From positions 1 to 20,526 of IMG/VR virus record IMGVR_UViG_3300034198_023591: a DNA stretch of 20,526 nt; one strand, given 5' to 3'. The DNA comes from a virus. Position 1 is the first letter of the stretch; the number at the start of each line of letters is the position of its first letter. The notes beneath the pieces were generated by a model, which was given only the letters and a program-made list of their open reading frames with translations, had not been told where the DNA came from and searched no databases. Both the position numbers and the translations under genes were made by a program. Shown here piece by piece: positions 52 through 7,929 of the stretch.

Positions 52-459
52 ATGAAATCTAATCAATGGTATAGTATTAATGATATAGATTTATTTGTGG
101 AGTCATCTAGAGTGTTAGTGTATAGTGCATTTGGTCAAAATCAATCAGAATTGGATGGTATAAATATTAATATAGAAGCTTTAGATGATGAGGCTAAAAG
201 AGAGTTAGATAGATGCTTATCTCAACGAGAATGTATGGTTATCGTAAAGGATTTTCTCGTACCATCTAAAAACGGTAAAACATATAAGATATCAGAAAAA
301 AAATATAAGGCATTTATAGACTCACTAAATGCAAGATTAGTGAGTAATATGTTACATAGATTATCTCATGATGGCTTATTGGAGAGTGCATTTGATGAGG
401 AGTCAAATGACTTTGTTTTTTGGGTAAAAGAAAATGAAAACAAAAAAGAAAATAGTTAA
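52..459 (+). CDS. Hypothetical protein, possible winged-helix C-terminus
   Basis: This 135-residue protein is not recognised. It is mixed alpha/beta, acidic and soluble, with no signal peptide or membrane segment. Residues about 85-125 (around ARLVSNMLHRLSHDGLLES, then a short aromatic beta stretch FVFWV) read like the recognition helix and wing of a winged helix, but that is only an impression. The last 26 bp overlap the next gene, which encodes a zinc-ribbon/RuvA-like protein and then RuvB, so it may belong to a DNA-processing group. No strong ribosome binding site precedes the ATG, so translation may be coupled to the gene ending at 48. Confidence 0.75.
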   Translation: MKSNQWYSINDIDLFVESSRVLVYSAFGQNQSELDGININIEALDDEAKRELDRCLSQRECMVIVKDFLVPSKNGKTYKISEKKYKAFIDSLNARLVSNMLHRLSHDGLLESAFDEESNDFVFWVKENENKKENS

Positions 460-880
460 GAATATTAAGCCCAAAAGCTATGATATTAATTATGAGTATA
501 TATGTCCATTATGTGGATGTAATCATTGGTTAACAAATATCGAAACTAAGACAAAGGGATTTAGGGTAGCTTGTGACTGCGGAGCAATACTATTTCCTAA
601 AGTGGTAAAAAAAATCAAAATTATATATAAGACTACTAATGTAGAGAGAGTAAAAAAGACAGCAAAAGAGACTGAGACTACAACAAAATCACCAGATATT
701 GTTTTGGAAAAGTCTATTGCAAATAGTGCTTGTGATACATTGGAAAAATATGGTTTTGAAAGATCAGAAGCTTTATCTCTAGTAGAGAAAGCATTTGCTC
801 AAATTCAACTAAATGATAGCGTAAGTTTAATTAAAAAAGCCTTGGAACTATTGGGAGCTGAAAAATGCGAAACTCATTGA
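434..880 (+). CDS. Zinc-ribbon protein with RuvA domain III-like C-terminus
   Basis: This 148-residue protein has two parts. Residues 24-49 carry CPLC and, 19 residues after its second Cys, CDC, a compact four-Cys zinc-ribbon pattern; a further Cys and a His (29 and 31) sit nearby. A lysine- and threonine-rich linker (about 56-90) follows. Residues about 93-141 then read as a small three-helix domain of the RuvA C-terminal type: the L-x-x-(Y)GF-x-R-x-EA signature and the ending LIKKALELLG match the pattern of RuvA domain III. In bacteria that domain is the part of RuvA that contacts and stimulates RuvB. The gene overlaps the downstream RuvB gene by 16 bp, so they are probably translationally coupled. 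The RuvA tetramer-forming, junction-binding domains I and II are absent. It is probably a RuvB partner that reaches DNA or another protein through the zinc ribbon. Confidence 0.8.
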   Translation: MKTKKKIVKNIKPKSYDINYEYICPLCGCNHWLTNIETKTKGFRVACDCGAILFPKVVKKIKIIYKTTNVERVKKTAKETETTTKSPDIVLEKSIANSACDTLEKYGFERSEALSLVEKAFAQIQLNDSVSLIKKALELLGAEKCETH

Positions 881-1761
881 GACCTACAAAGTTTGAAGAT
901 ATTATTGGACAAGCAGATGTTGTCAAAAGACTGAAGATTCTTACTCATAGTTGTAAAAATTCAGAACAAGTTATTCCACATCTTTTAATTGACGGACCTC
1001 CTGGCCTTGGTAAAACCACAATTGCTGGAGCTATTGCATCTGAGATGGATGTTAATCTGTATACAGTTAATGCTGCTAATATCAGAAGCCCAAAGAATAT
1101 TCTCCCATATCTAATGGGTATCGCACCAAGGTCGGTTTTGTTTATTGACGAGATTCACAGACTGCCTAAATTGGTGGAAGAATTTTTATATCCAGTAATG
1201 GAAGACTATAAGCTAGATATTGTTATTGAAAATAAACCTGAATCTATAGAATTACCAGTATTTACTGTTATCGGAGCAACTACTAGTGGTGGAAGCTTAA
1301 GCCAGCCGTTTTATGATAGATTTGTTATTAAGGAGCATCTGTCTTTTTATAATCCCGATGAATTAGCTAAACTGGCAGGATCGAACGCTAAAAAGCTTGG
1401 ACTAATGATAAGCGATGAGTGTCTTTTGGAAATCTCAAAAAGAAGCAAAGGAACTCCAAGAATCTTAAATGCTAGGCTACAGTGGTATAAAAGTTATTTG
1501 GATATGTACCCCGAAGAAACTAATATAGATACGATCTTTGAAAGTCAGGGTATCGATTCAAATGGTTTTGATTGTAATGATAAAAAGTACATAAATATTC
1601 TAAAGAAGAATATAGGCAATCCACTAGGACTAAAAAGTTTATCTGCAATGTGTGGTATTGCTATGGAAACAATAGAGAATAGTATAGAGCCATACATGAT
1701 CAGAATGGGATATATATCAAGAACACAAAAGGGCCGAGTAATATCGGATAAAAACATATGA
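865..1761 (+). CDS. ruvB: RuvB-type AAA+ Holliday junction branch-migration ATPase
   Basis: At 298 residues this is somewhat shorter than bacterial RuvB (about 330-340). The match runs end to end: RPTKFEDIIGQ at the N-terminus, Walker A GPPGLGKT (44-51), Walker B LFIDEIH (92-98) and sensor 1 GATT (137-140). The arginine-finger region is PFYDRF (148-153), with sensor 2 GTPRIL (196-201). The C-terminal winged helix shows GNPLGL and EPYMIRMGYISRTQKGRV (about 251-292). The sequence between Walker B and sensor 1 keeps the DYKLDI...LPVFTVIGATT form of the RuvB hairpin that contacts RuvA. One difference is Tyr150 where bacterial RuvB usually has Arg just before the DR pair. It presumably forms a ring motor for branch migration or replication-linked recombination in the phage. 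The preceding gene supplies a RuvA domain III-like partner. Confidence 0.93.
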   Translation: MRNSLRPTKFEDIIGQADVVKRLKILTHSCKNSEQVIPHLLIDGPPGLGKTTIAGAIASEMDVNLYTVNAANIRSPKNILPYLMGIAPRSVLFIDEIHRLPKLVEEFLYPVMEDYKLDIVIENKPESIELPVFTVIGATTSGGSLSQPFYDRFVIKEHLSFYNPDELAKLAGSNAKKLGLMISDECLLEISKRSKGTPRILNARLQWYKSYLDMYPEETNIDTIFESQGIDSNGFDCNDKKYINILKKNIGNPLGLKSLSAMCGIAMETIENSIEPYMIRMGYISRTQKGRVISDKNI

Positions 1762-5717: not shown

Positions 5718-6719
5718 ATGAGTAAAGGATTAGATGTTGGTACAAGTTTTATAGTCATGTCATCCTATAAAGGGGATAATATCATATTTAAAGATTTTAG
5801 AGATGCTTTTTATACAATAAAGCCGTCCACACCAATAGCAAACAAGATGATAGAAAAAGGACTGTCTGGGAAGATCTTTGTTAAAGATGTAGATGGATCA
5901 TTTATCATATTAGGAAAAGACGCAATAGAGAAGGCGGTTGAGCGTAATGATACTGCTCGTAGGCCAATGTATCGTGGTGTTGTTTCTGTAAAAGAAAAAC
6001 AGGCCAAAAGAGTATTAGCATATATTATTCAAGAAGTTGTGGGCAAATCTTCTGAAGAAAATGAAAAAATAGTTTTTTGTGTACCAGCACAACCAATAGA
6101 CCAAGAAGATGATGATTTTGATGTAGGCTACCACGAAGATGTCGTTAAGACAATATTATCAGAAATTGGTTATGATGCTAGATCAATTAATGAAGCAGAA
6201 GCTTTATGCTATGCTGAATTAACAGATAATGATTATACTGGTATAGGTATCAGCTGTGGTGCTGGTATGACCAATGTTTGCGTTATGCTCAATGGGGAGC
6301 CTACGGTTGTATTTAGTACAACCAAGTCTGGTGACTGGGTTGATCATATGAGCGCTATAGCGACCGGAGAGCCAGACAGTGTAGTTCAGGTAGAGAAGGA
6401 GGCGGGTGGTTTTAAAATAGGAGAACCAAACGAAAATCCAGTATTGAGTGCAGTATCATCATACTATGAAAGACTTATAGAATATACAGCTAAACAATTA
6501 TCTTTAGCTCTTACTAATCATAAGTCTTTACCTAAATTTAAACACCCAATACAAATTGTTGTAGCTGGAGGAACATCTCAAGCAGATGGGTATATTGATA
6601 AATTAAAAGATAAACTTTTAGAGTCTCAATTTCCTTTACAGATTGAAGTAGTCAGGCATTCTCAAGACCCCTTACACGCTGTTGCAAAAGGATGTTTGAT
6701 AGCAGCAAGTATATTATGA
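5718..6719 (+). CDS. Actin-like ATPase (MreB/ParM superfamily)
   Basis: This 333-residue protein is of typical size for MreB/ParM. The phosphate-1 loop is GLDVGTS (4-10). ARRPMYRGVVSVKEKQAKRV (80-99) and IVFCVPAQP (118-126) match the MreB-like RPMxxGVI...ICVP order. INEAEALCYAEL (157-168) is the connect segment. The phosphate-2 loop is GIGISCGAGMTNVCVML (175-191). SGDWVDHMSAIA (204-215) corresponds to the GGDxFDxxI helix, and IQIVVAGGTSQADGY (278-292) is the adenosine motif. Phosphate-2 normally reads D-x-G-x-G-T-T; here the aspartate position is Ser179 (ISCGAGMT), so catalysis may be altered. It presumably polymerises to position or segregate phage DNA or to organise the membrane. It overlaps the HNH gene by 4 bp (ATGA). 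Confidence 0.87.
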   Translation: MSKGLDVGTSFIVMSSYKGDNIIFKDFRDAFYTIKPSTPIANKMIEKGLSGKIFVKDVDGSFIILGKDAIEKAVERNDTARRPMYRGVVSVKEKQAKRVLAYIIQEVVGKSSEENEKIVFCVPAQPIDQEDDDFDVGYHEDVVKTILSEIGYDARSINEAEALCYAELTDNDYTGIGISCGAGMTNVCVMLNGEPTVVFSTTKSGDWVDHMSAIATGEPDSVVQVEKEAGGFKIGEPNENPVLSAVSSYYERLIEYTAKQLSLALTNHKSLPKFKHPIQIVVAGGTSQADGYIDKLKDKLLESQFPLQIEVVRHSQDPLHAVAKGCLIAASIL

Positions 6720-7024
6720 TTTGGCCATTTAATAGATCTATTAAATTTGATCAAAGATCTGCTGATTGGAAAAAAACTAGAGAGCTACATCTAAAAACTA
6801 ATCCTTGCTGCGAAGTTTGCGGCTCGTGTATTAAACCAGAAGTTCATCATATTGTTCCTGTTCATGTGGACGGGTCTAAAGAATTAGACCCAGAAAACTT
6901 AATTACATTATGTGATAAATATTGTCATTTTATTTTTGGACACTTAATGAATTGGAAAAGTTATAACAAAAATATAGTAAACGATGCTAAAATATTTTCT
7001 AACAAATTAAGAGATAGACCATGA
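6716..7024 (+). CDS. HNH endonuclease, phage type
   Basis: With the ATG at 6716 the protein has 102 residues and begins MIWPFNRSIKF. Key elements are CCEVCG (31-36), EVHHIVPVH (42-50), LDPENLITLC (57-66) and YCHFIFGHLMNWKSYN (69-84). These give the His-Asn-His core, with paired Cys-x2-Cys and Cys-x3-Cys zinc ligands. The compact form ending in GHLxNWKSYN is common in tailed phages. An in-frame ATG at 6692 would add eight residues, but the 6716 start gives the ATGA overlap seen at several other junctions and the natural MIWPFN opening. It also ends in an ATGA overlap with the protease gene. It could nick DNA for packaging or recombination, or be a free-standing homing enzyme; operon placement favours a resident role. 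Confidence 0.88.
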   Translation: MIWPFNRSIKFDQRSADWKKTRELHLKTNPCCEVCGSCIKPEVHHIVPVHVDGSKELDPENLITLCDKYCHFIFGHLMNWKSYNKNIVNDAKIFSNKLRDRP

Positions 7025-7929
7025 AAAACACTATTTCATTATTACCAAGTATTACAGAAGAAGTTTTTGGAATAAGCCCATACGATATTCAAACTAAGGG
7101 GTGGGAGATTACAAAGCTAGACGTAGACAAACAGTGGGTAAAAAGCATGGGAGACGGAGTTACTGTCGCCGTAATAGATACTGGATGCGACTATAATCAT
7201 CCTGATATTAAAGATAATATTATTGGAGGATATAATTCAATAAAAAAAAATGATAATTTTATGGATGATAATGGTCATGGATCTCATGTTTGTGGTACTA
7301 TTTGTTCGCCAGATAATGGTATGGGTATGGTGGGAGTTGCTCCAAAAGCCAAAATATTAGCAATTAAAGCCTTAAGCGCATCTGGTACAGGGAGTCCTAA
7401 CCACATTGTTAATGGTATAAAATATGCAATTGAATCAAAAGTAGATATAATTACAATGTCTCTTGGTTCTGAAGGAGATATACCAAATATTAAATCCGCA
7501 TTACAAGAAGCTAGTGCAGCAAATATTCTTGTTTTTTGTGCTGCGGGAAATAGTGGCCCTACTAAAAACATAATGTATCCAGCAAGAGATCCTAATGCTA
7601 TTAGCATAGGAGCTATAGACGAAAATTTTGATAGAACTAATTTTACTTGCAGCGGTGATTCTTTAGATTTCTTGTCTCCTGGACATAATATATTAAGTAT
7701 ATTACCTGGTAATAGATACGGATTAATGAGTGGTACAAGCATGAGTAATCCATTCGCTGTTGGTTGTGCTGCTCTTTATTTATCATATCATAGACAACAG
7801 TATGGAATAAAATATCTGTCACAAAAAGATATGATAGAAATTTTACAAAAAAATGCTATAGATCTAGTCAATCCAGCTTTTAGAAGCAAAAAATATCAAG
7901 GCTATGGGATTATTAGGCCAATTTTATAA
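7021..7929 (+). CDS. Intracellular-subtilisin-type serine protease (S8 family)
   Basis: This 302-residue protein has the complete subtilisin triad: Asp53 in VAVIDTGCDYNHPD (49-62), His86 in DDNGHGSHVCGTI (82-94) and Ser240 in SGTSMSNPFAVG (237-248). The oxyanion Asn177 lies in CAAGNSG. There is no signal peptide, so it should act in the cytoplasm or inside the particle. The opening MKNTISLLPSITEE, followed by a short stretch before the core, resembles the LIPY-containing propeptide of Bacillus intracellular subtilisins, which blocks the active site until cleaved. The usual TSMAAPH is TSMSNPF here; the missing His is not catalytic. Likely roles are maturation of virion proteins or degradation of host proteins. 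It is the last gene of its unit; a 67 bp gap with a promoter-like motif follows. Confidence 0.92.
   Translation: MKNTISLLPSITEEVFGISPYDIQTKGWEITKLDVDKQWVKSMGDGVTVAVIDTGCDYNHPDIKDNIIGGYNSIKKNDNFMDDNGHGSHVCGTICSPDNGMGMVGVAPKAKILAIKALSASGTGSPNHIVNGIKYAIESKVDIITMSLGSEGDIPNIKSALQEASAANILVFCAAGNSGPTKNIMYPARDPNAISIGAIDENFDRTNFTCSGDSLDFLSPGHNILSILPGNRYGLMSGTSMSNPFAVGCAALYLSYHRQQYGIKYLSQKDMIEILQKNAIDLVNPAFRSKKYQGYGIIRPIL

Follow-up and report, generated by a model that had tools for sequence, protein, structure and literature searches.

To our knowledge, a RuvA tetramer brings RuvB to DNA in all known RuvAB systems, and domain III has been studied as the tail of RuvA. In T4-like phages UvsW, a superfamily 2 (SF2) helicase, works with endonuclease VII. 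Published work describes bacterial domain III as the nucleotide-exchange and ATPase-activating factor for RuvB (PMC9477746); according to the abstract of a further study, the RuvBs of Mycoplasma pneumoniae and Mycoplasma genitalium are helicases without branch migration (PMC3364216). In a survey of jumbo phages, RuvC was reported but RuvB was not (PMC7824862). Here we describe a 20,526-nucleotide (nt) stretch of viral DNA (IMG/VR record IMGVR_UViG_3300034198_023591; the whole stretch is hereafter called the window), which belongs to a phage genome and matches part of a 114-kb virus contig (G001/L001) at 99.98% identity or more. Near its start, two open reading frames (ORFs) on the + strand, at 434-880 (148 amino acids, aa) and 865-1761 (298 aa), overlap by 16 nt; the second encodes a RuvB protein and the first a zinc-ribbon protein with a RuvA domain III tail. 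We consider it more likely than not that these two genes constitute a phage branch-migration motor and its adaptor.

The locus resembles the bacterial RuvA-RuvB systems of Escherichia coli, Thermus thermophilus and Pseudomonas aeruginosa in that all RuvB motor motifs are present, the partner gene is adjacent and upstream, and the partner ends, after a flexible linker, in a domain III with hydrophobic contact positions. It differs in being phage-borne, in having a partner with a four-Cys zinc ribbon and without the oligonucleotide/oligosaccharide-binding (OB) fold and helix-hairpin-helix (HhH) domains, in its shorter RuvB hairpin, and in that a search of 16 phage records for RuvC was negative. 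The Mycoplasma proteins are likewise a divergent RuvA/RuvB pair with altered activity, whereas their authors label them RuvA homologues and the abstract makes no mention of a zinc-ribbon replacement (PMC3364216). With T4-like UvsW and endonuclease VII the locus shares its likely task, namely branch migration and then the cutting of junctions, and here too endonuclease VII-type genes are present; the motor, however, is RuvB, and no SF2 helicase was found in eight records. The phages of the jumbo-phage survey are also large and carry recombination genes of their own, but the systems described there have RuvC (PMC7824862), while those examined here have RuvB. The literature searched did not yield any account of a phage RuvB whose partner has domain III alone of RuvA, and no close counterpart of the pair was found among GenBank phages.

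The phage RuvB

The product of ORF 865-1761 matches the Pfam families RuvB_N (PF05496, 3.7e-47), AAA_lid_4 (PF17864, 3.1e-8) and RuvB_C (PF05491, 1.4e-19), and aligns along its whole length with RuvB chains of the PDB, at E values down to 6e-68. The P-loop domain, the AAA lid and the RuvB winged-helix domain are all contained in this one protein. A comparison of 32 distinct phage RuvBs showed conservation of the Walker A and B motifs, the MED and GATT motifs, the arginines of DRF and GTPR, and the RTxKGR motif of the wing. Residues K50, T51, D95, E96, E113, D114, R152, R199 and R291 are invariant in the RuvB alignment A2, with R286 and K289 conserved in at least 90%. The roles of these motifs have been described for bacterial RuvB (PMC9477746, PMC10071043); the residues were matched to the published roles by alignment, as both papers number other RuvBs. 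Judged by its sequence, the protein qualifies as a true RuvB: its catalytic and DNA-contact residues are in place, and branch migration is its predicted activity. When the genome collection was scanned with RuvB, clamp loaders made up most of the matches, and just two were bacterial RuvBs.

In bacterial RuvB the presensor-1 β-hairpin is the element on which RuvA domain III docks (PMC9477746, PMC2628435). It is present in all aligned phage RuvBs (residues 117-130 of the window protein, 1213-1254 on the + strand) and, relative to E. coli, is shortened by 4 residues in 31 of the 32; the remaining protein (locus L024) has a five-residue insertion in the hairpin. Among the RuvBs encoded without a neighboring zinc-ribbon gene, some have a changed hairpin (the L024 insertion, or Thr for a hydrophobic residue in L009-L015) and others an unchanged one. 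Another phage, at L052 5977-12969, has a distantly related RuvB-like protein (31% identity), encoded close to genes which by eye are putative GroEL and DinB-type polymerase genes. No domain III partner was found in the flanks examined of the distant phage RuvBs L051 and L052.

The zinc-ribbon partner and its tail

An alignment of 25 homologues (A1) of the 148-aa protein is shared by some of the domain III tests described below. Searches with the single sequence against Pfam, PHROGs and the PDB yielded sub-threshold matches only, and one against GenBank phages gave no useful match. Degenerate-pattern scans with the protein recovered near copies and nothing further; A1 itself is too diverse to serve for pattern scanning.

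When the A1 profile was compared with all PDB chains, the seven best matches were all RuvA domain III, the best of them (1ixs_A, E 9.6e-5) being domain III crystallized with RuvB; the RuvA matches span profile positions 83-134 only, and the tail comprises residues ~90-144 of the window protein. RuvA_C was the Pfam family matched by the largest number of A1 members (6 of 25, best E 0.0016), with single-sequence scores below the curated cut-off, and a whole-record search with RuvA_C recovered the homologue in G003 (E 2e-4). Alignment by hhalign of the tail with domain III of 16 bacterial RuvAs gave 96.4% (P 1.3e-9) and a score of 43.2, whereas 100 column-shuffled controls reached at most a score of 16.1 and 8.1%. 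Additionally, a hidden Markov model (HMM) of bacterial domain III alone, run against 4810 frames from the phage loci, placed copies of the zinc-ribbon gene at ranks 1-8 (best E 9e-5); the window's own protein came near noise in this search. As single members are weak, it is the family profile that carries the case for domain III.

The AlphaFold model of the whole protein (predicted local distance difference test, pLDDT, 83) folds the tail (residues 93-144, 710-865) into three helices at 93-105, 110-124 and 129-144. The best 12 structural matches were all RuvA domain III chains (Z 6.3-8.3, root-mean-square deviation 1.3-2.2 Å); rank 13 was a phage head-tail adaptor (Z 6.3), and UBA domains reached Z 5.2 at most. 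Helical bundles can reach such Z values by chance; the fold comparison therefore backs the sequence evidence but is not sufficient by itself. In E. coli RuvA, replacement of L167 and L170 with alanine abolishes RuvB activity while junction binding is retained (PMC2628435). These two positions align with L103 (Leu in 22 of 25 homologues) and Y106 (Tyr in 22 of 25), and the RuvB-contact positions of E. coli RuvA thus remain hydrophobic in the tail.

Ahead of the tail, the zinc ribbon (residues ~20-60, 491-613) is modeled with pLDDT above 90, and its Cys24, Cys27, Cys47 and Cys49 are invariant in all 25 homologues. Its structural matches were weak and consisted of small zinc ribbons (Z 3-3.4), and a viral structure library held no convincing two-domain counterpart of the protein. 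The low-complexity linker (residues 61-92, 614-709) varies in length among homologues, falls in gappy columns of A1 and has pLDDT below 50 at residues 73-86. The junction-binding RuvA domains I (RuvA_N, the OB fold) and II (HhH) are absent from the protein. Moreover, neither RuvA_N nor a second RuvA_C was found in the 16 phage records, and the same RuvA_N search was positive in 10 of 14 control genomes. Because several of these records are fragments, single absences are weak, and those in the 224- to 233-kb records G003, G006 and G009 weigh more. By sequence and modeled structure, then, the protein is composed of a four-Cys zinc ribbon, a flexible linker and domain III, without RuvA domains I and II. 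The ratio of nonsynonymous to synonymous substitution rates (dN/dS) of its gene, 0.13-0.32, is indicative of purifying selection.

This composition agrees with an earlier note made from the window sequence, which had described a ruvB gene overlapped by a gene for a zinc-ribbon protein, with the ribbon in place of RuvA domains I and II and a C-terminus reading like domain III. The two genes lie and overlap where the note had placed them, and Pfam and the PDB confirm RuvB; the four cysteines together with the missing RuvA_N bear out the domain replacement, and the PDB profile, the hhalign comparison with its shuffled controls, the bacterial HMM and the AlphaFold fold matches bear out domain III. 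The note had also raised the prospect of a different fold, such as a generic UBA; this comparison was made, and domain III came out ahead of UBA in both sequence and structure. We conclude that RuvA domain III, not a generic UBA, is the homologue of the tail. For the use of the RuvB hairpin face, which the note had named as a further criterion, sequence gives support, in the hydrophobic L103 and Y106 and in the presence of the hairpin; the minimal loader that the note proposed, which would recruit the motor to another DNA structure or to the replisome, is a hypothesis.

A RuvB scan of viral contigs yielded 52 loci, 50 of them close, on which the genes upstream of ruvB were tallied by hand. Joint conservation of the pair in related phages, which the earlier note had put forward as a check, was seen in 34 of the 50, where a zinc-ribbon homologue lies directly upstream of ruvB and usually overlaps or abuts it; in the other 16 the gene is missing beside ruvB. 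The close gene order is consistent with coupled synthesis.

Mechanism and competing explanations

If the pair acts as a motor with its adaptor, the domain III tail would, by extension from bacterial RuvAB, dock on the phage RuvB at its presensor-1 hairpin and stimulate nucleotide exchange and ATP hydrolysis. We infer both the loading of RuvB by the zinc-ribbon protein and the target of the ribbon: in the least certain step, the zinc ribbon, replacing the junction-gripping RuvA tetramer, would anchor RuvB to phage DNA that is branched or single-stranded, or to a phage protein located there. RuvB would then move the intermediates that the phage RecA makes in recombination or at stalled forks, and endonuclease VII-type enzymes of the phage, rather than RuvC, would cut them. 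More tentatively, and with a little less than even confidence, we propose that RuvB has been re-aimed in a modular fashion, the docking module being kept and the junction-binding tetramer replaced by a zinc ribbon, such that the motor acts on another phage DNA structure or protein assembly without a four-way-junction clamp.

The gene content of related phages provides a setting for such a pathway. A 232-kb relative (G006) encodes Pol III alpha, DnaB, a Toprim primase, RecA and a PD-(D/E)XK nuclease, and endonuclease VII-type genes scored above the cut-off in 5 of 8 records. Helicase_C, representing SF2 helicases of the UvsW/RecG type, was not found in 8 records. With no RuvA_N, second RuvA_C, RuvC or Helicase_C found, RuvB is the only candidate branch-migration motor recognized.

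Several observations weigh against a motor-and-adaptor pair. The phage RuvB hairpin is 4 residues shorter than the bacterial one and lacks part of its tip; no informative homologue of the zinc ribbon was found in family or structure searches; and the endonuclease VII-type candidates could be homing nucleases. In G006 the cassette adjoins rIIA/rIIB and lies ~45-55 kb from the RecA and polymerase genes. Furthermore, absence of the zinc-ribbon gene beside ruvB in 16 of 50 loci entails at least four changes on the RuvB tree, and no adaptor match was found elsewhere in G004, G005, G007 and G013, all of which may be fragments. Given these losses, the zinc-ribbon gene is useful but not indispensable, and RuvB either manages without the adaptor or uses another partner; in adaptor-less phages it may use host RuvA, an unrecognized partner, or none.

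Among other explanations, it is unlikely, if still worth serious weighing, that the motor has moved off Holliday junctions and that RuvB serves as a double-stranded DNA translocase. It would then work on replication forks, on transcription complexes or on packaging substrates, and the binding target of the zinc ribbon would be the replisome, RNA polymerase or terminase. Such a role would suit the absence of the junction-specific RuvA domains I and II and the failure to find RuvC, and many systems have small zinc ribbons that bind nucleic acid or RNA polymerase; yet no partner gene indicates a specific target, and the presence of RecA and of endonuclease VII-type resolvase candidates means that junctions are probably both made and resolved.

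The losses of the adaptor in several lineages would also suit an accessory role, that of a decoy or regulator which occupies the RuvA-docking face of phage or host RuvB and restricts how far host RuvA can use that RuvB, either keeping RuvB off host junctions or blocking the cutting of phage forks by host RuvAB(C). A free domain III without junction-binding domains could indeed compete with RuvA for RuvB, and compatibility of RuvA and RuvB across species has been reported (PMC9477746). We nevertheless regard this as quite improbable: the phage brings its own RuvB with an overlapping adaptor gene, which fits a partner better than an inhibitor, and a pure competitor would not need the four-Cys zinc ribbon that is kept in 25 of 25 homologues.

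The PHROG clamp-loader profile matches no protein but RuvB in 8 of 8 records, which prompted us to consider a clamp-loader function; the AAA+ protein would then be the phage clamp loader and the zinc-ribbon protein its small subunit, and a Pol III alpha-type polymerase is present. This is very hard to credit, as the RuvB_N, RuvB_C and whole-length PDB RuvB matches are far stronger than that to the PHROG profile (2e-20), the presensor hairpin and the C-terminal wing of RuvB are kept, and the domain III homology of the partner indicates docking on RuvB. DnaN was not found in 8 records, in which T4/PCNA-type and other clamp families were not searched. Having been tested in part, the clamp-loader identity was dropped on the strength of the RuvB matches and the failure to find DnaN. 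That the tail is a generic UBA-like three-helix bundle beside RuvB by coincidence can be virtually dismissed, for although UBA-like folds are widespread and the window protein by itself matched nothing in single-sequence searches, RuvA domain III outranks UBA by sequence and structure, the shuffled control lies far lower, and the partner gene is that of RuvB itself.

Genomic surroundings and significance

A conserved gene upstream of the pair (52-459, +) overlaps the zinc-ribbon gene and encodes a 135-aa protein of helices followed by a C-terminal strand pair, possibly a winged-helix protein. Fold comparison gave weak MarR/winged-helix-like matches only, and no significant family or fold match was found. 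Most loci have this gene upstream of ruvB, with or without the zinc-ribbon gene, and where the zinc-ribbon gene is missing it directly precedes ruvB. Scans for promoters and terminators yielded nothing informative. Homologues of rIIA and rIIB precede the ruvB cassette by a few genes, by profile matches at L086 8527-12168 and as similar open frames at G006 198490-202013.

Elsewhere in the window, an actin-like protein is encoded at 5718-6719 (Pfam Volactin, 6e-67), and open frames whose starts are closely similar occur in relatives (G006 193699, L088 4106-5107 and L091 2112-3113). Pfam also identified an HNH endonuclease at 6692-7024 and a subtilase at 7021-7929, and many genes between 2512 and 20044 were judged by eye to encode putative sugar- or surface-modifying enzymes. 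Relatives carry genes for a DUF1501 protein, a subtilase with an LEQLETRALLS-type N-terminus and a DUF1559 pilin-like protein (G006 216029, L084; G006 39620, L075; L092 10815-11771). Because we take these types to be common in Planctomycetota, their presence suggests this group as the hosts of these large phages.

These results document a true RuvB in a large-phage lineage and suggest a phage route to branch migration without a recognizable UvsW, RecG or RuvA. A natural adaptor with domain III alone separates the docking and stimulation of the motor from junction recognition, and thereby offers a test of domain III on its own. The pair suggests that a well-known recombination motor has been re-aimed through a swapped targeting module; if this is true, the specificity of RuvB would reside in a swappable adaptor.
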